Positions 3,756 to 19,187 of a stretch of DNA of 51,919 nt are shown piece after piece. The stretch spans positions 1 through 51,919 of the IMG/VR virus record IMGVR_UViG_3300032235_000843, one strand, 5' to 3'. Each line of letters opens with the position of its first letter. The first letter of the stretch is position 1. The position numbers were made by a program, and so were the translations under genes. Source of the stretch: a virus. The notes under the pieces were generated by a model. That model did no database searches, had not been told where the DNA came from, and worked only from the letters and a program-made list of their open reading frames with translations.

Positions 3756-4154
3756 ATGTCTTTAATTGGAAAAAGAAGAGGAAGACCAACTACAAGATCT
3801 CAATTCGAATCAATTCTTAAAAAGTTTTTAATTTTTCTAAAGAGAGAACTTAAATTTGCTTACGATATTCCAATTATTCTTGTAGATGATGTAGATTTTT
3901 CTAAAAATAATAAAACATTTGGATTGATGTATCCGGATAAAATTGTTATTAGTATTGTTAATCGTCATCCAATAGATATTTTGAGAACCGTTGCTCACGA
4001 ATATATTCATCATAAGCAGCAAAGTGAAGGCAAAAGATTGAATGGAAATGCTGGAAGTGTCAGTGAAAACGAAGCAAATGCAAAGGCAGGAGAAATAATT
4101 AGAAAATACTCTAATCTTCAATCTGATCTATTTGACTTAATACCAATTAGATAA
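3756..4154 (+). CDS. Putative small zinc metallopeptidase (HEXXH)
   Basis: A 132-aa protein with the zincin motif HEYIH at residues 81-85 inside a predicted helix, and a downstream glutamate in SENEANAKAGE (around 104-113) that could be the third zinc ligand, as in ImmA/IrrE or SprT-like minimal proteases. The N-terminus is basic (GKRRGRPTTR). No signal peptide or membrane segment is seen, so it would act in the cytoplasm or in the virion. The proteolytic role is inferred from the motif only. Confidence 0.6.
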   Translation: MSLIGKRRGRPTTRSQFESILKKFLIFLKRELKFAYDIPIILVDDVDFSKNNKTFGLMYPDKIVISIVNRHPIDILRTVAHEYIHHKQQSEGKRLNGNAGSVSENEANAKAGEIIRKYSNLQSDLFDLIPIR

Positions 4155-4208: not shown

Positions 4209-4215
4209 ATAAATA
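4208..4215 (+). promoter_or_regulatory. Late promoter TATAAATA
   Basis: Exact match to the T4 late promoter octamer. The last A is 20 bases before ATG 4236, the same spacing seen before 6558, 18550, 46528 and 49998; by analogy with T4, transcription would start about 15 bases before the gene. Confidence 0.8.
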
Positions 4216-4235: not shown

Positions 4236-4709
4236 ATGAAAACTTTTTTAGAGTTTATTTCTGAAGCAGAATTTTACCAAGACACCCTTAGAGGAAGTAA
4301 AAAAAGTCCTTTTTCAACTGCAAGTGAACGTCAATCTAATATTCGTAGACAATTAGATAATCCAAGATTGAGCGATCAGCAAAAACAAGATTTAAGAGTT
4401 AGATTCGCTAAAATTACTGCAGGTATAAAAAAAGCAGGGACTCTTGCAAAAGAAATGGGCAAAGGACCAGAAAATAAAGATGCAGGAAGAACTAATACTA
4501 AAGTAAGAGGATATGCCTCAAAACCAAGAGATGTTAGAGGAAGTGTAGGTAGTCTGCGTGATATAGATTCGGGCAATCAACCTTCAGATGTTAGAACTTC
4601 TGGAAGATACGGCGATACAAGATCCAGATCTCAAGGAGGTGGAAGTGTTCCTACAAGAAATAAAGGACAAGGATATAGCACTCCTGAAAGATCTCACTAT
4701 AGTAGATAA
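4236..4709 (+). CDS. Putative internal head protein with capsid-targeting N-terminus
   Basis: A 157-aa late protein whose first residues MKTFLEFISEA closely resemble the capsid-targeting sequence of T4 internal proteins, which I recall as MKTYQEFIAEA. T4 prohead protease gp21 cuts such peptides after Glu in an (L/I)xE site; here FISE|A at residues 7-11 would fit. The rest is very basic and low-complexity, rich in Arg, Gly, Ser, Lys and Gln, without a globular fold, as expected for a DNA-packing or injected head protein. It is the first of four consecutive genes with this design. Its role is inferred; no domain is recognised. Confidence 0.6.
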   Translation: MKTFLEFISEAEFYQDTLRGSKKSPFSTASERQSNIRRQLDNPRLSDQQKQDLRVRFAKITAGIKKAGTLAKEMGKGPENKDAGRTNTKVRGYASKPRDVRGSVGSLRDIDSGNQPSDVRTSGRYGDTRSRSQGGGSVPTRNKGQGYSTPERSHYSR

Positions 4710-4720
4710 CACATTAATAT

Positions 4721-4728
4721 TATAAATA
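4721..4728 (+). promoter_or_regulatory. Late promoter TATAAATA
   Basis: Exact T4-type late octamer, 27 bases before ATG 4756. Confidence 0.75.
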
Positions 4729-4755
4729 TCCATAGAGTAGTATAAGTACAACAAA

Positions 4756-6375
4756 ATGAATTCCAAAGACATTGTATCTCTTTATGAAGCATACGCTGCT
4801 GTTTATGATGAAGATCTAAGAGATGAATTAGAATCTTCTTCAATTCAGGAAGATCTTTCTTTCGTTGATGATCTAAGTGATAATGAACTTGATCAGGTAA
4901 TGGAAGATATTTTTGCATCTGGAGATATTGATATCAATGAGTGTTTTGATTCTTTGGATTATGTTCTATCTGAAGCAAGAGTAACTTCTTCTGATGATAG
5001 ACCATCTGGTTCTGCAACAGTTACTAGAAGTTCAGAAAGACCAAGCAGAGTAGCAAGATCTGCAGAAAGACAAAGACAAGTAAGAATTGGTAGAATTGCT
5101 CAGGCAGCTCAGCGTACTGGTGAGAGACTAGCGGCTCCTGCACGTTCTACTGGAGGAACTTCAGCATCTGCTAGAGTTGGTCAAGCAAGTGCAAAAGTAA
5201 AATCCGCAGTACAAAATGTAAAAGGATTTTTGGGTAAACTAGGTCGTTCCGCAAAAGCAGGTGCATCTGCTGCTAAAAAAGAATTGAGTGGAGAAGCAGG
5301 AAGAGAGGCACAAGAAAGAACAACTGGTCGTCAAATGAGAAGAGCAGCAAGACGCCAAGCTTCTGCTGAAAGAAGTAAAGATACTTCTGAATTTGAAAGA
5401 AAACCATCATGGAGACCTGGTGGACAGAATGTAAATAGAACATTTAAACCTCAACAAGGTCCAACACCAGCAGCAAAAAGTGATGAATCAAAACCATCAT
5501 GGAGATCTGGTGGACAGAATGTAAACAGAACATTTAAACCTCAACAAGGTCCAACACCAGCACCAAAAGGTCCAAGATCTCCTGCTCCTTATAGGAATGC
5601 AGGTAAAAGTGATACTGGACCTTCTTCAACTGGTAGAGCACTTCCTGGATCTTCTGCAAGAGCAGCACTTCCTCCTGCAAAGGAGTCTGATAGAAGAGCG
5701 GCCTCAAAAGCAAAATTACAAAAAGCATCTGCTGGTTCATCTGCAAGAGGAATTAGATTTGCAGGAGAGAGAGTTGGTCAGTTAGCAACACAAAGAGCAC
5801 ATACTGGCAAACAAAATGCTCTAGAAAAATTCAGAAAGAAAATCGGTGTCAGTGAGGAAATCTTCAATCAGATTCTAAACACAATCTTTGAAGAAATGAT
5901 TCATGAGGGTTATGTTGATTCTTATGAAAACGCACTTTATGTTCTTGAATCACTTTCGGAGTCTGATGTTCAAGATGTTGTTGAGTCCTATCTAGTTGAA
6001 GAAACTGAAATCGTTGATCTTTATGATGTTGTTCTTGAGCATCTTCTTGATGAAGGTTATGCGGACACTGTTGAAAATGCAGAAGTAATCATGACGAATA
6101 TGAGTGAAGAGTGGAGAGATGAAATTGTTTTTGAAGGATTCAAGAAAATGAATCGTGCAAAAATCGAAAAGCAAGCAAGAAGACTTGGTGGTGATAGAGG
6201 AGATGTTCTACGTGCCGTTGCCGACAAAATGGATACTGAAGTTGAGCGTAAGTATTCAACAAGACAGGCAAGATTAAATAGAGCCGGAGGATCTGGAAGT
6301 GAATATAGAAAGAACCAAGAACTTAGAGCAAGAGATGATGCAAAGGCAGATTTCAAGAAGTATGGTCTTCGCTGA
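4756..6375 (+). CDS. Large basic putative head protein with internal repeats
   Basis: A 539-aa late protein with three parts. Residues 1-75 are acidic and contain SLYEAY, a possible prohead-protease site (LYE|A at 9-12). Residues 76-350 are basic, disordered and Ala/Arg/Ser/Lys-rich, with a 30-residue unit repeated twice in tandem (DNA 5401-5571). Residues 355-460 carry two related acidic helical units of the type EGYxDxxENAxxVLxxLSE. The C-terminus is basic and helical. The alternating acidic and basic segments resemble scaffold or DNA-condensing head proteins. No enzyme domain is visible. A terminator follows directly. Confidence 0.6.
   Translation: MNSKDIVSLYEAYAAVYDEDLRDELESSSIQEDLSFVDDLSDNELDQVMEDIFASGDIDINECFDSLDYVLSEARVTSSDDRPSGSATVTRSSERPSRVARSAERQRQVRIGRIAQAAQRTGERLAAPARSTGGTSASARVGQASAKVKSAVQNVKGFLGKLGRSAKAGASAAKKELSGEAGREAQERTTGRQMRRAARRQASAERSKDTSEFERKPSWRPGGQNVNRTFKPQQGPTPAAKSDESKPSWRSGGQNVNRTFKPQQGPTPAPKGPRSPAPYRNAGKSDTGPSSTGRALPGSSARAALPPAKESDRRAASKAKLQKASAGSSARGIRFAGERVGQLATQRAHTGKQNALEKFRKKIGVSEEIFNQILNTIFEEMIHEGYVDSYENALYVLESLSESDVQDVVESYLVEETEIVDLYDVVLEHLLDEGYADTVENAEVIMTNMSEEWRDEIVFEGFKKMNRAKIEKQARRLGGDRGDVLRAVADKMDTEVERKYSTRQARLNRAGGSGSEYRKNQELRARDDAKADFKKYGLR
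5401..5571 (+). repeat. 90-bp in-frame tandem repeat, two copies
   Basis: Copy 1 is 5401-5490 and copy 2 begins at 5491; the copies are nearly identical to about 5571. Each encodes a Trp/Pro/Gln-rich unit starting KPSWRxGGQNVNRTF. The 30-codon period keeps the frame, so copy number could change without disrupting the protein. Confidence 0.85.
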
Positions 6376-6393
6376 TTGAAAACATAAAAATTA

Positions 6394-6422
6394 AAGAGGG
6401 TTTAATTACCCTCTTTTTTTAT
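6394..6422 (+). terminator. Rho-independent terminator
   Basis: Stem AAGAGGG / CCCTCTT with an 8-base AT loop and a T-rich tail. It separates the head gene at 4756 from tRNA-Ala. Confidence 0.85.
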
Positions 6423-6432
6423 ATTTTAGGAA

Positions 6433-6507
6433 GGGGATATAGCTCAGTTGGTAGAGCGCCTGCTTTGCACGCAGGAGGTTTCATCGGTTCGAACCCGATT
6501 ATCTCCA
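6433..6507 (+). tRNA. tRNA-Ala (anticodon TGC)
   Basis: Cloverleaf with acceptor GGGGATA / TATCTCC (one G-U pair), D-arm AGCTCAGTTGGTAGAGC, anticodon stem-loop CCTGC TTTGCAC GCAGG and T-arm ATCGG TTCGAAC CCGAT. The variable loop appears two bases longer than usual. It lies alone inside the late head cassette, far from the other tRNAs at 18-23 kb. Confidence 0.93.
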
Positions 6508-6529
6508 TAAATACAAAAGATTGATAAAA

Positions 6530-6537
6530 AATAAATA
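6530..6537 (+). promoter_or_regulatory. Late promoter AATAAATA
   Basis: Late-type octamer ending 20 bases before ATG 6558. A second copy, CATAAATA at 6506-6513, overlaps the end of tRNA-Ala. Confidence 0.65.
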
Positions 6538-6557
6538 TAAGTATATAAAAAAATAGT

Positions 6558-7847
6558 ATGAAACGTTTCTTCCAATTTTTGTCTGAAGCAAGAGAATCGC
6601 AGGCATCATTGCAAGCGAAAAAACTTGGTCTGGTTGGTGATGGTCACGGAGGATGGTTGGATCGTGGTGGAAAACAAGTAGCAAGAACTGAAGGTGGGAA
6701 GTTAAAGTTTCTTGATGGTAGGCAAAAGTCCGCTCCAGAAGAAAAAGGTGCAAAACAAGCAACTGGTCCAGCATCAATGCCACAGGGACAACAAGCAGTC
6801 GCTCCAGTTTCACGCCCCCTTCCACCACAAGCATCTCCAGAAGAGCAAGAACCAGAGGAAAAACCAACTCTCACAATTGTATTGGGAAGGTTTAATCCGC
6901 CTACAATTGGACATGATAAAACATTTAATATTGCCAAAAAAGTTTCTGTTGGCGGCGACTTAAAAATATATCCATCAAGAACTCAAGATCCAAAGAAAAA
7001 TCCATTGAATCCTGAAGTTAAAATTCAATACATGAGAATGATGTTCCCTGATTATTCTGATAATATAATTGATGACCCTGATATGGAAAGTATTTTTGAT
7101 GTATTAATTACTGCTTCTGAGGATGGGTATGGAACTGTAAATATTGTTTGTGGATCTGATCGTCATGGTGAGTTTGAAAATTTATCTCAAAGATATAACA
7201 AAGAATTATATAATTTTGACTTGATTCGTGTTGTATCTTCGGGAGTTAAGGATACTGAAGCTGAAGGGGCAATGGGAGTGTCTTCTTCAAAAATGAGAAA
7301 AGCGGTAATTGATAATGATTTCTCAACTTTTAGAAGAGGAACTCCTAAAACTCTCAGTAACGCTGAAACTCAATCTCTGTTTGATCAAGTAAGACAGGGA
7401 ATGAAAATTAAAAAAACAAAAACCCAAAAAGAAAATTATAACCTTTGGGAAATAGCTCCAAAACTTGATGTTCAAAATCTTCGTGAGAATTATATTTCTG
7501 GAAAAATATTCAATGTTGGAAATATTGTAGAAAATTTGAATACTGGATTGGTTGGAGAAGTCATACGTAGAGGGACTAATTATTTAATTTGTGTTACTAA
7601 AGAAGGTTATATGTTTAAGTCTTGGATCAAAGATTTAATGGAATATACTGAAGTTAAAATGGATTCGCCGATGAGAGACAAAATTCATCCCAATACTCTT
7701 GTTGGAACTTTAGGTGCATTTAAACATTATGCAAAAATGACACCAGGTGTAATTGGAACAAATAGTCAATACCTTCAAAAAGGTGGTAAAGCATATGGAG
7801 TCAATTTTATAAATAAATATAAGGCAAAAAAAGCAAGCACTCGTTAA
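6558..7847 (+). CDS. Nucleotidyltransferase (NMN adenylyltransferase-like) with capsid-targeting N-terminus
   Basis: A 429-aa protein with at least three segments. Residues 1-11 (MKRFFQFLSEA) match the T4 internal-protein targeting peptide, with a predicted cut FLSE|A. Residues 20-100 hold a Gly-rich segment (GDGHGGWLDRGG) and a Pro/Gln-rich linker. Residues 104-262 form an HxGH-superfamily nucleotidyltransferase: GRFNPPTIGH at 110-119, CGSDRHGEF near 198 and the C-terminal VSSSKMR at 241-247, equivalent to the ISSTxIR motif of NMN/pantetheine adenylyltransferases. The last 140 residues are unassigned. The reaction would be transfer of AMP (or CMP) to a phosphorylated substrate, most likely NMN to NAD. 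Packaging into the head is inference. Confidence 0.72.
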   Translation: MKRFFQFLSEARESQASLQAKKLGLVGDGHGGWLDRGGKQVARTEGGKLKFLDGRQKSAPEEKGAKQATGPASMPQGQQAVAPVSRPLPPQASPEEQEPEEKPTLTIVLGRFNPPTIGHDKTFNIAKKVSVGGDLKIYPSRTQDPKKNPLNPEVKIQYMRMMFPDYSDNIIDDPDMESIFDVLITASEDGYGTVNIVCGSDRHGEFENLSQRYNKELYNFDLIRVVSSGVKDTEAEGAMGVSSSKMRKAVIDNDFSTFRRGTPKTLSNAETQSLFDQVRQGMKIKKTKTQKENYNLWEIAPKLDVQNLRENYISGKIFNVGNIVENLNTGLVGEVIRRGTNYLICVTKEGYMFKSWIKDLMEYTEVKMDSPMRDKIHPNTLVGTLGAFKHYAKMTPGVIGTNSQYLQKGGKAYGVNFINKYKAKKASTR

Positions 7848-7848
7848 G

Positions 7849-9642
7849 ATGACTAATAATCACGTAAAAGATATATCCAGAATTTATCTGGACCAAATTG
7901 TTGGTGAAGCATTAGATCCTGTTGGAAAAGAGGACGCTGATATTGACAATGATGGTGATCATGATAAGTCTGACAAGTATCTTCGTAAACGTAGAAAAGC
8001 AATTGGTAATGCAATTGCTACTCAAAAAGAGGCATTGGATCCTGTAGGTAAAGAAGATGATGACATCGATAACGATGGTGATGTTGATAAGTCTGATGCT
8101 TACTTAAAGAATCGTAGAAAAGTTCGCTCAAAAGTAATCGCAAAAGAAGGTTATTCAAACTGGAGAGAAGATCTAATTGAGGTTGTTGATAAAATCTCAA
8201 AAGATAGGAGTAAAGATGTAAAAATTACTGAAAAGCAAATTAATAATAAAATTGATATAAATCCAAAACTTAATCTTGGTGAAAGAGTTGATCAACTTGG
8301 AGGAATTCTTCTTGAAATGTCTGAAATCGAAGACTTTGAAGGAGTTTTTGGTGATCTATCCGAATCTGAAATTTTCTTGCTATCTGACCAATTAATTGAA
8401 GAAGTAGTAGAAGAAGTTTTTTATGAGTGCCTTGAAGAAGGATATGATCTTCAAGATGTAGAAAATACTTTATTAGAATCTTTAGAAATTTCATCTGCGA
8501 TTTTAATCGAAGCAAAAGTTACTTTAGGACATGACACTAAAATAAAAAATGATAAATTAGAAAAAGTAAAATCTATAGTTAAATCAGTAAGTAAAAAATT
8601 AGGTGCTGGATATAAGAGAGAGAGACATGGTGAATCTGAATCTTCATCAGGTTCTGGTTCTTCAAGACCCGGATTGCTTGGAAGAATAGGATCTGCACTT
8701 AAAAGTGGACTAAAGAGAGTGGTTCGTGGCGCAGGATATACTACTGGACTTGTTGCAAGAGGAGCAAAGGCAACAAAAAGAGAATTTGGTGCCGGGTATG
8801 AAAGAGGATCAAAAGGAAAAGGAAAGGAAAATCCAAGTGCTGTGCATTCAAAAGTAGGAGTAAGGTCTGCAAATCTACGTAGTGGTATTGGTAGTGGTAA
8901 AAGAGTAGAAGTTGCAGGAGAACGTAAAAAAGAAGAACCAGTTCAAAGAGTTTCTGTTAGAGATGTGACTCCACCAAAACCAAAACCAGAATCAAAAGCA
9001 CCCGCAGGAACTTCTGAAAATCCAAGAGTAGGGCAACCCGCATCAGATAAACCAAAACCAAAACCAGAACCAACAGTAAGAACAAGAACAAGAACAAGAA
9101 CAGTATCAACTAAAGGATTTGGTAGTTTCAAACCATCATCAAGTGGAGAAGAGGCATATCAGAAGGAAAAAGAAAAACAAGAAACTGCAAAGAGTGCAAA
9201 GAAATCAAGAACTAGATCGTCTAGTAAGAAGAAATCAAAAGAACCAAATCCAAAAAAACCTGGAGCACCTTCATTAGATGATCTTCTAAAGTCTGAAGAA
9301 TTTGAACTTGATGAAAAAACTTTAACTGCTGCCGAGACTAAACAAAAAGAAAGAATTGTAAAGTCGATGAAAGATAAATCATCAGATTTTGAAAAGAGAT
9401 ACCCTGGTCGTGGTAAAGAAGTTATGTATGCTACTGCTACCAAGATGGCAAAGAAAATTGCTGAGCAGGCAATGGAAATTCAACCAAAAACGCAGCAGCA
9501 GTCTGGTCATCAAAATGTTATGCAAAAAAAGGTAGCACAGCAAAAAGATAGACAAAAGCAGCAGGAAGTTCAAATTCTTCAAAGAAAACTTCAAGCACTG
9601 AGATCTGCTCCTAAAGGCGTAGATACTGGTATTACAGCTTGA
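7849..9642 (+). CDS. Putative head protein with EF-hand-like calcium loops
   Basis: A 597-aa late protein starting one base after the previous stop. Near the N-terminus, IVGE|A (17-21) is a possible prohead-protease site. Two copies of a 30-residue unit (21-50 and 62-91) each contain DIDNDGDxDKSD, which places Asp at positions 1, 3, 5, 7, 9 and 12 of a canonical EF-hand/dockerin loop. An acidic helical region (150-220) is followed by a long basic, Ser/Lys/Arg/Pro-rich disordered region with KPKPEP and RTRTRTRT runs. The C-terminus is helical and Gln-rich. This suggests a calcium-binding, DNA-associated structural protein; no enzyme domain is seen. Confidence 0.6.
   Translation: MTNNHVKDISRIYLDQIVGEALDPVGKEDADIDNDGDHDKSDKYLRKRRKAIGNAIATQKEALDPVGKEDDDIDNDGDVDKSDAYLKNRRKVRSKVIAKEGYSNWREDLIEVVDKISKDRSKDVKITEKQINNKIDINPKLNLGERVDQLGGILLEMSEIEDFEGVFGDLSESEIFLLSDQLIEEVVEEVFYECLEEGYDLQDVENTLLESLEISSAILIEAKVTLGHDTKIKNDKLEKVKSIVKSVSKKLGAGYKRERHGESESSSGSGSSRPGLLGRIGSALKSGLKRVVRGAGYTTGLVARGAKATKREFGAGYERGSKGKGKENPSAVHSKVGVRSANLRSGIGSGKRVEVAGERKKEEPVQRVSVRDVTPPKPKPESKAPAGTSENPRVGQPASDKPKPKPEPTVRTRTRTRTVSTKGFGSFKPSSSGEEAYQKEKEKQETAKSAKKSRTRSSSKKKSKEPNPKKPGAPSLDDLLKSEEFELDEKTLTAAETKQKERIVKSMKDKSSDFEKRYPGRGKEVMYATATKMAKKIAEQAMEIQPKTQQQSGHQNVMQKKVAQQKDRQKQQEVQILQRKLQALRSAPKGVDTGITA
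7909..8121 (+). repeat. Duplicated EF-hand-like coding unit (period 123 bp)
   Basis: Codons 21-50 (7909-7998) and 62-91 (8032-8121) of the host gene encode nearly identical segments running from ALDPVGKED to RRK. Synonymous differences between the copies show selection for the protein sequence rather than a very recent duplication. Confidence 0.8.
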
Positions 9643-18549: not shown

Positions 18550-18993
18550 ATGAGAAAAGATCTTGACGATAAGAAAGATTATATAGTAAACTCTCTTATG
18601 TCTGGTGTATCTCCAACTCAACTCTGTCTTGAATTGAATTGTAAAATAGATACACTTAGATCTAGATGGAGAAAGTGGATTCCTGACTATAAACCAGATA
18701 ATACCAAACATCTTGGTAGTTTTGGGGGTCAAAATAAATGGAACTCTCTTTCTGATTACTACAACTCTTCTAAAGAATCTTGTAAAAGAGATATCTTATA
18801 CCGATTGTTAGTAGAAGAACGAGGTAATATTTGTTCTGAATGTGGTATTTCTTCTACTTGGAATGGTAAACCTCTAAGGTTACAAGTCGATCACATTAAT
18901 GGCGAAAGATACGATAATCGTCCAGAAAATTTAAGATTGTTGTGTCCTAATTGTCATACACAAACAGACACATTCTCAAATAAAAAACGATAA
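18550..18993 (+). CDS. HNH endonuclease (probable homing nuclease)
   Basis: A 147-aa protein: an N-terminal helix-turn-helix-like region (SGVSPTQLCLELNCKIDTLRSRWRKW) for DNA recognition, then a C-terminal HNH domain with zinc-knuckle Cys (CSECG ... CPNCH) and the catalytic LQVDHINGERYDNRPENL. Free-standing nucleases of this kind cut a related locus and spread themselves by repair. The gene sits between a broken tRNA-Leu piece and an intact tRNA-Leu that starts directly after its stop codon. Confidence 0.88.
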   Translation: MRKDLDDKKDYIVNSLMSGVSPTQLCLELNCKIDTLRSRWRKWIPDYKPDNTKHLGSFGGQNKWNSLSDYYNSSKESCKRDILYRLLVEERGNICSECGISSTWNGKPLRLQVDHINGERYDNRPENLRLLCPNCHTQTDTFSNKKR

Positions 18994-19076
18994 GCTCTAG
19001 TGGTGGAACGGTAGACACAGCGGACTTAGAATCCGCCGCCTTAAAAAGCGTGGAAGTTCAAATCTTCTCTGGAGCA
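18994..19076 (+). tRNA. tRNA-Leu (anticodon TAG)
   Basis: Class II tRNA with acceptor GCTCTAG / CTGGAGC (one T-G pair), anticodon stem-loop GCGGA CTTAGAA TCCGC, a long variable arm and discriminator A. It begins at the base after the HNH stop codon. Confidence 0.9.
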
Positions 19077-19077
19077 C

Positions 19078-19106
19078 TTGACAATCAAACTTAAATAGTT
19101 TATGAT
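19078..19106 (+). promoter_or_regulatory. Promoter P2 of the tRNA region with an inverted repeat
   Basis: TTGACA (19078-19083), 17 bases, TATGAT (19101-19106). It shares CTTGACAATCAAA with P1. The inverted repeat GACAATCA / TGATTGTC (19080-19087 and 19103-19110) covers both hexamers. Confidence 0.75.
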
Positions 19107-19116
19107 TGTCTTATAA

Positions 19117-19187
19117 GCGGGTATGGTGTAGCGGTAACACGCCATCCTTCCAAGTTGGAATCACCGGTTCGAACCCGGTTACCCGCT
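19117..19187 (+). tRNA. tRNA-Gly (anticodon TCC)
   Basis: Acceptor GCGGGTA / TACCCGC, anticodon loop CTTCCAA, T-arm CCGG TTCGAAC CCGG. There is one T-T mismatch in the anticodon stem. Confidence 0.9.

Follow-up and report, generated by a model that had tools for sequence, protein, structure and literature searches.

In a four-gene block of a T4-like cyanophage, the products of gene 1, gene 3 and probably also gene 2 are likely to be precursors of proteins that are packaged into the phage head. The reading that best fits the block is a cyanophage version of the T4 capsid-targeting cargo system, in which a core enzyme would form part of the cargo. The window, which is the whole stretch of 51,919 nucleotides (52 kb) of the IMG/VR record IMGVR_UViG_3300032235_000843, is a piece of the genome of such a phage. 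The initial annotation had tentatively assigned all four genes to a T4-like system of internal-protein and Alt cargo. The internal-protein part of this assignment stands for genes 1 and 3 and largely for gene 2, whereas the N-terminal E↓A of gene 4 does not qualify (arrows mark predicted cuts). The part that stands is carried by the match to the tags of T4 ipII and ipIII, conservation along the IPIII map, a tag end resembling the gp23 cut, gp21 in the complete relatives and orthologues in virions.

All four open reading frames are present on the + strand with the N-termini given for them earlier. Gene 1 (4236..4709) encodes a predicted tagged precursor of 157 residues, gene 2 (4756..6375) a protein of 539 residues with a low-complexity C-terminal part, gene 3 (6558..7847) a nucleotidyltransferase of 429 residues that belongs to PHROG 395 and the cyanophage core cluster T4-GC190, and gene 4 (7849..9642) a protein of 597 residues. 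A tRNA-Ala (TGC) separates genes 2 and 3 (6433..6507, +). Relatives often carry a hypervariable gene slot 3' of this tRNA, and the virion proteins in it fall into 11 unrelated families, one of them nuclease-like; in this window the slot is empty. The mature proteins had been described as mostly basic and disordered, disorder being assessed from composition alone. This description suits gene 1, with a net charge of +16 after the predicted cut, but not gene 3, which is a folded enzyme, while the products of genes 2 and 4 are acidic N-terminally and basic C-terminally.

The late promoter of cyanomyoviruses is NATAAATA (PMC2984593). Late-promoter-like ATAAATA sites lie upstream of gene 1 (4209..4215), gene 2 (4722..4728) and gene 3 (6531..6537), all on the + strand, and before gene 4 at 7809 and 7813, inside the end of gene 3. 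The window contains 24 copies of ATAAATA, a total that does not exceed chance (19.2 expected, sd 4.7), but 23 of them are on the gene-bearing + strand.

The capsid targeting sequence of the T4 internal proteins IPII and IPIII was reportedly described by Mullaney and Black in 1996. The start MKTYQEFIAEA, which the initial annotation gave for T4 internal proteins, is correct for ipII and ipIII. Similar tags open gene 1 (MKTFLEFISE, 4236..4265, +) and gene 3 (MKRFFQFLSE, 6558..6587, +), each with a predicted gp21 cut before A11. The likeness covers the length of 10 residues, F/Y4, F7, L/I8, E10 and A11, and extends to the basic gene 1 product, the late-promoter-like sites and the presence of gp21 in complete relatives. 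It also includes the gp21 cut motif published for T4, L/I-X-E (PMC9026906), to which genes 1, 2 and 3 conform and gene 4 (I-V-G-E↓A, with V at P3) does not. Unlike in the T4 proteins, the tag is free at positions 3, 5, 6 and 9, gene 3 is a folded nucleotidyltransferase and the bodies show no kinship to them; the bodies were compared by match names only, and no Pfam or PHROG match is named IP or Alt.

In T4 IPIII, targeting depends mainly on positions 4 and 7 and processing on positions 8 and 10 (PMC9026906). At the level of sequence, the conserved positions of gene 3 coincide with this map. F4, F7, L/I/F8 and E10 are retained in 74 of 75 distinct relatives and position 11 is held, while 3, 5, 6, 9 and also 12 vary. 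Gene 3 of P-SSM2 starts with MKSFSQFLTE↓T and thus lacks the E↓A. For gene 1, relatives were found on 9 viral contigs, and every match begins at residue 1; at five loci the tag is retained and the body is divergent or swapped. There was no match to gene 1 among annotated phages or in Pfam, and its sole PHROG match is weak (E = 0.008). Counting against the tag reading, S-SCSM1 gp030 carries a tag that ends in ES (MKTFKQFMSES) but lacks a virion-protein annotation.

The protease that would cut these tags, gp21 (PF03420), is encoded in 8/8 complete cyanophage relatives and in 11/17 long contigs. It was not found within the 52 kb window, although a fragment need not include it. In the gp23 alignment, GSFLTE↓A of T4 falls opposite GSFLAE↓A of S-SCSM1, and S-SRM01 gp23 contains SFLSE↓A in the region matching the T4 gp23 cut. 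The cyanophage tag end has the same form as the predicted gp23 cut (SFLSE↓A, SFLAE↓A) in these aligned sites from complete relatives.

Glu and Ala are common at the starts of proteins rich in them, so the E↓A sites could in principle be chance occurrences that share no function, an explanation to which we attach hardly any weight. The L/I-x-E motif is very short, and [LI]xEA is found at 1.5% of protein starts versus 1.1% inside proteins. The full tag, MKx[FYLW]xxF[LIVMF]xE[ASG], was nevertheless counted 12 times across eight cyanophage sequences, where shuffling would give 0.004, and its retention in all but one of the gene 3 relatives is difficult to ascribe to chance. In seven cyanophage genomes, 21/1448 ORFs (1.5%) have [LI]xEA within the first 22 residues. 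From this base rate, its presence in 3/4 neighbouring genes has P ~1e-5, and the looser pattern of the initial annotation, with a base rate of 2.1%, gives P ~2e-7 for 4/4 genes, both values being computed for a run chosen by eye with that selection ignored. A DNA-pattern survey placed the tag at an ORF start in 79/80 matches, and pooling it with the other fetched loci put the tag on ~34 clusters of dissimilar proteins. The decoy pattern, with shifted spacing and F at position 5, overlaps the real tag in part: 57/65 analysed decoy matches also have F4 and hence fit the real tag, so the fair control consists only of decoy matches lacking F4. For genes 1 and 3, the chance explanation is already largely refuted.

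Gene 2 differs in detail. A possible cut, SLYE↓A, lies in residues 1-11 (4756..4788, +), and a second one, YVLSE↓ARV, at the end of the acidic segment formed by residues 1-73 (4756..4974, +; net charge -21). The F/Y4 and F7 of IPIII type are absent from its N-terminus, MNSKDIVSLYEA. All 21 relatives that were selected by the C-terminal domain, independently of the motif, carry [LIM]x(x)E[AS] near the N-terminus, again arguing against chance. The L-x-E↓A/S is conserved among them, with a small residue after Glu. Conserved residues continue beyond the cut (EAYxAVY), so the segment is not necessarily removed as a tag.

The N-terminal site of gene 4 (IVGE↓A, residues 1-20, 7849..7908, +) makes a weak claim, and gene 4 was rejected as a fourth tagged protein on the basis of its N-terminus. 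Here, the chance explanation is probably true: the site lacks L/I at P3, falls in a stretch, EALDPVGKED, that is repeated within the protein, and is not conserved, with E↓A mostly missing from relatives (QIVEKKK, EKVSTKLDEKKK). Enrichment emerges only when the motif is relaxed to [LIVM]x(x)E[AGS], which fits 36 of 54 relatives versus 8.3 expected. Judged by sequence, the better candidate cut is the internal AILIE↓AKV at codons E221-A222 (8509..8514, +), which separates an acidic (-26) from a basic (+46) part. Gene 4 is part of the same virion-protein block but has no conserved tag at its N-terminal E↓A.

Downstream of its tag, gene 3 has the features of an enzyme. The nucleotidyltransferase domain spans residues ~101-290 (6858..7427, +) with the motifs GRFNPPTIGH and SSSKMR, in which F112-P115 and H119 are invariant and G118 nearly so, and it folds with confidence in the structure model. 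The protein matches PHROG 395, 'cytidyltransferase', with E = 4e-94 and Pfam CTP_transf_like just over the cut-off (3e-4), and 557 phage records contain a match to it. Foldseek returned NadM (2qjo) as best match, followed by PPAT and NadD; a profile sequence search of PDB gave nothing real. On the evidence of the model, gene 3 is an NMN/NaMN-adenylyltransferase-like folded enzyme that may use NMN or another nucleotidyl acceptor, NadM, NadD and PPAT all being matched. It is plainly a member of T4-GC190/PHROG 395, called NMNAT in S-SCSM1, and what we add is the reading of the N-terminus of this family as a putative capsid targeting tag.

Mass spectrometry detected orthologues of gene 3 in virions of S-SM1, as T4-GC190 (PMC3037559), and of S-SCSM1, as NMNAT (PMC9602691). 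In S-SCSM1, the virion-protein annotation covers 6/7 CDS of the orthologous block (P = 1e-4); gp089 and gp280, the counterparts of genes 2 and 4, bear this annotation. The tag might instead be a localisation signal in the infected cell, for example for membrane binding, with virion detection reflecting carry-over. The structure model puts a helix at residues 4-13 of gene 3 with low confidence. Carry-over can occur in virion proteomics; the S-SCSM1 authors name it as possible for NMNAT (PMC9602691), and a regA-like repressor is likewise labelled a virion protein. We nonetheless consider such a signal highly improbable, given that NMNAT-like proteins are reported from virions of several cyanophages (PMC9602691), that the gene block is rich in virion proteins, and that a membrane helix has no need of an exact E↓A end.

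Virion detection cannot separate head from tail, and a neighbouring virion protein in S-SCSM1, gp277, is annotated as a tail fibre. Together with the conservation of gene 2 past its cut, these observations would suit an N-terminal segment that acts as an uncut docking helix and brings the proteins into the virion as structural parts of the head, neck or tail rather than as injected cargo. This is unlikely, since the tag agrees position by position with the T4 tag and the gp23 cut, gene 3 becomes variable right after A11, many dissimilar proteins bear the tag, and the nucleotide-binding motifs of gene 3 are conserved.

The capsid-targeting cargo reading can also be set beside other systems. T4 Alt is a head-borne ADP-ribosyltransferase with a 7-residue propeptide. 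Gene 3 shares with it the idea of a head-carried enzyme delivered at infection, but differs in tag length and in its fold, that of an NMN/NaMN/phosphopantetheine adenylyltransferase. No Alt-like ADP-ribosyltransferase was found among the genes examined, and the Alt part of the initial annotation was not upheld. On visual inspection, one tagged protein encoded on a different contig resembled an ADP-ribosyltransferase, but the model of it is poor (pLDDT 38) and it has no Pfam match, and therefore no Alt-like claim is made. In the giant phage SPN3US, the prohead protease also cuts propeptides after Glu and internal proteins are ejected, but the motif is A-X-E and most propeptides exceed 100 residues, unlike the cyanophage tag (PMC10052503). 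No description of a cyanophage capsid targeting sequence was found in the open-access papers searched.

In the proposed mechanism, the proteins would be synthesized late from the ATAAATA sites. By analogy with T4, their N-terminal tags would bind the prohead scaffold core, chiefly through F4 and F7. The cut motif and the aligned gp23 site suggest that gp21 then cuts after Glu at F-L/I-x-E↓A, removing the tag. The mature proteins, among them the basic gene 1 product, would remain in the head with the DNA and be injected together with it. The mature gene 3 enzyme could then act on the host nucleotide/NAD pool before phage gene expression.

A broader and more tentative proposal, which we hold to be possible though rather doubtful, is that aquatic T4-like phages use one head address tag, MKx(F/L)xxF(L/I)xE↓A, on dozens of unrelated proteins as a port for injected effectors. 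Its commonest cargo would be an enzyme of NAD/nucleotide metabolism that reaches the host before transcription, for example restoring NAD in abortive defence, and the hypervariable slot would belong to the same delivered set. Many virion proteins of aquatic phages are without known role. If the capsid-targeting cargo reading of the block is true, the 'cytidyltransferase' core cyanophage gene becomes head-packaged, probably injected cargo, and a sequence rule becomes available to pick likely injected proteins from aquatic phage genomes. These results also suggest that the T4 principle of capsid targeting, studied in coliphages, is more widespread than that group.

The 51.9-kb virus record has its gene matches among T4-like cyanophages of the family Kyanoviridae. 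The four plus-strand ORFs listed in the initial annotation, here genes 1 to 4 (4236-4709, 4756-6375, 6558-7847 and 7849-9642), are present with their starts as described there. Their run is flanked by a possible HExxH metalloprotease gene (AHEYIHHKQ; 3756-4154) just upstream of gene 1 and by a 57 aa ORF on the other side, and a tRNA-Ala keeps genes 2 and 3 apart. In cyanophage S-SCSM1, genes 2, 3 and 4 correspond to gp089, gp281 and gp280, and complete relatives display the same order. ATAAATA late-promoter-like sites lie on the plus strand in 23 of 24 cases over the whole window, their total not exceeding chance. All four genes had been proposed to carry tag-like N-termini; this description holds for genes 1, 2 and 3, reducing the number to three.

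For gene 3, relatives were fetched by patterns in the protein body, the tag expression serving only for trimming of starts. Among 75 distinct aligned relatives, almost no change occurs at M1, K2, F4, F7, E10 and A11; position 8 accepts L, I or F, and variation falls on positions 3, 5, 6, 9 and 12. P-SSM2 deviates with E/T (slash, predicted cut), and Bellamy with L replacing F4. In the T4 internal head protein IPIII, targeting depends mainly on residues 4 and 7, and processing on residues 8 and 10 (PMC9026906). Agreement with this map is the best single argument, because those positions had been fixed by others.

A scan of seven complete cyanophage genomes and the window with MKx[FYLW]xxF[LIVMF]xE[ASG] returned 12 starts, against 0.004 expected from shuffling of residues 2-40, and the same expression picked out ipII and ipIII in T4. 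The simple motif [LI]xEA occurs in the first 22 residues at a base rate of 1.5%, and finding it in three of the four neighboring genes gives P ~1e-5 before correction for the choice of place. Since internal 22-residue stretches contain it at 1.1%, the simple motif alone is hardly enriched at starts; the enrichment is a property of the full tag.

The predicted cut site fits the motif of the T4 prohead protease gp21, which cleaves after L/I-X-E (PMC9026906). The tags end in FISE/A (gene 1) and FLSE/A (gene 3). T4 gp23 loses 65 residues, the E of GSFLTE/A being residue 65; S-SCSM1 gp23 aligns GSFLAE/A with this site, and S-SRM01 gp23 has SFLSE/A in that region, displaced by a few columns in this alignment. 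gp21 is encoded by T4, by each of the eight complete cyanophages searched and by 11 of the 17 long contigs that have either a tagged gene or a gene 3 relative; the remaining contigs may be fragments.

Relatives of gene 1 in viral contigs retain MKTF-x-x-F-I/M-x-E-A with a divergent body. Three loci (L115, L117, L119) have an unrelated stretch in place of the first half of the body, and in two others (L123, L147) body similarity is marginal at most. The locus thus resembles T4 internal proteins in its constant tag and changing cargo. A sample of viral contigs surveyed by degenerate DNA pattern gave at least 80 MKxFxxF[LIF]xEA sites in the loci analysed; among the matches listed, 79 of 80 are the start of an ORF that either spans 60 codons or is truncated by the contig edge, and a stop codon or the contig end lies no more than 40 codons upstream of each of the 80. 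Together with the other loci retrieved, the set amounts to at least 221 tagged proteins in at least 34 clusters without mutual blastp match, of which single-sequence clusters may conceal distant relations. Among the members are DUF5661, DUF6267, a GNAT acetyltransferase and a metalloprotease-like protein; the last is related to the 3756-4154 product, a relative of which in L245 bears the tag. Two tagged proteins (L252:1211-1858, minus strand; L219:3736-4149) look ADP-ribosyltransferase-like by eye; neither matched Pfam, and the model of L252 is of too low quality for a judgement. T4 gp61.1 (18966-19130) starts with MKTFKEFIKED, near the tag with D replacing A, and an S-SM2 protein (91376-91804) with MKTLKQFLKET.

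In gene 2, [LIM]x(x)E[AS] lies close to the N-terminus in 21 of 21 relatives, selected by C-terminal domain irrespective of the motif. The family lacks the F4/F7 signature and its conservation runs beyond the site (EAYxAVY); therefore, the site may serve for cleavage and yet not be an IPIII-type tag. A second site, [LIVM][LI]xE/A[RKT] near residue 73, is present in roughly one third of family members (14 of 42, in one of which it lies elsewhere); in the window it separates an acidic part (-21) from a basic part (+26).

The N-terminal E/A of gene 4 was rejected as a tag: P3 is V, and relatives have QIVEKKK, QVVEKKK or EKVSTKLDEKKK. A degenerate site is still conceivable, because a loose motif places a candidate at residues 10-35 in two thirds of relatives (36 of 54, 8.3 expected). 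Within the protein, EALDPVGKED recurs, and AILIE/AKV divides charges of -26 and +46. Two EF-hand-like loops (7939-7974, DIDNDGDHDKSD; 8062-8097, DIDNDGDVDKSD) lie in a repeat shared with relatives.

Virion data exist for gene 3 orthologues. The gene belongs to core cluster T4-GC190, as its orthologues in S-SM2 and P-SSM2 carry the label 190, and the T4-GC190 protein and gp21 were found in S-SM1 virions (PMC3037559). S-SCSM1 virions contain 45 phage proteins, among them the orthologue called NMNAT, with carry-over allowed as an explanation by the authors (PMC9602691). In the S-SCSM1 record, 'virion protein' labels 6 of 7 CDS of the orthologous block versus 47 of ~282 overall (P = 1e-4); with 47 labels against 45 proteins in the paper, the labels are close to the mass-spectrometry list, not identical. 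Between tRNA-Ala and gene 3, relatives (L106-L192) have a hypervariable slot; its 51 distinct proteins sort by blastp into 11 unrelated families, of which one shows a PD-(D/E)xK-like pattern (phrog_26930). The S-SCSM1 slot (87458-88792) encodes gp282, annotated as virion protein; the window counterpart (6508-6557) is empty.

By analogy with T4, the tag would bind the scaffold core and be cleaved, and tagged proteins would reside in the head, be injected and act in the host. In the gene 3 model, residues 101-290 form a core predicted with confidence (pLDDT around 90 for the most part), and fold search places NMN adenylyltransferase/ADP-ribose pyrophosphatase NadM (2qjo) first, followed by phosphopantetheine and nicotinate-nucleotide adenylyltransferases. 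The nucleotide-binding region GRFNPPTIGH and the SSSKMR motif are largely conserved. If the substrate is NMN, early replenishment of NAD against an NAD-depleting defence would be an attractive speculation.
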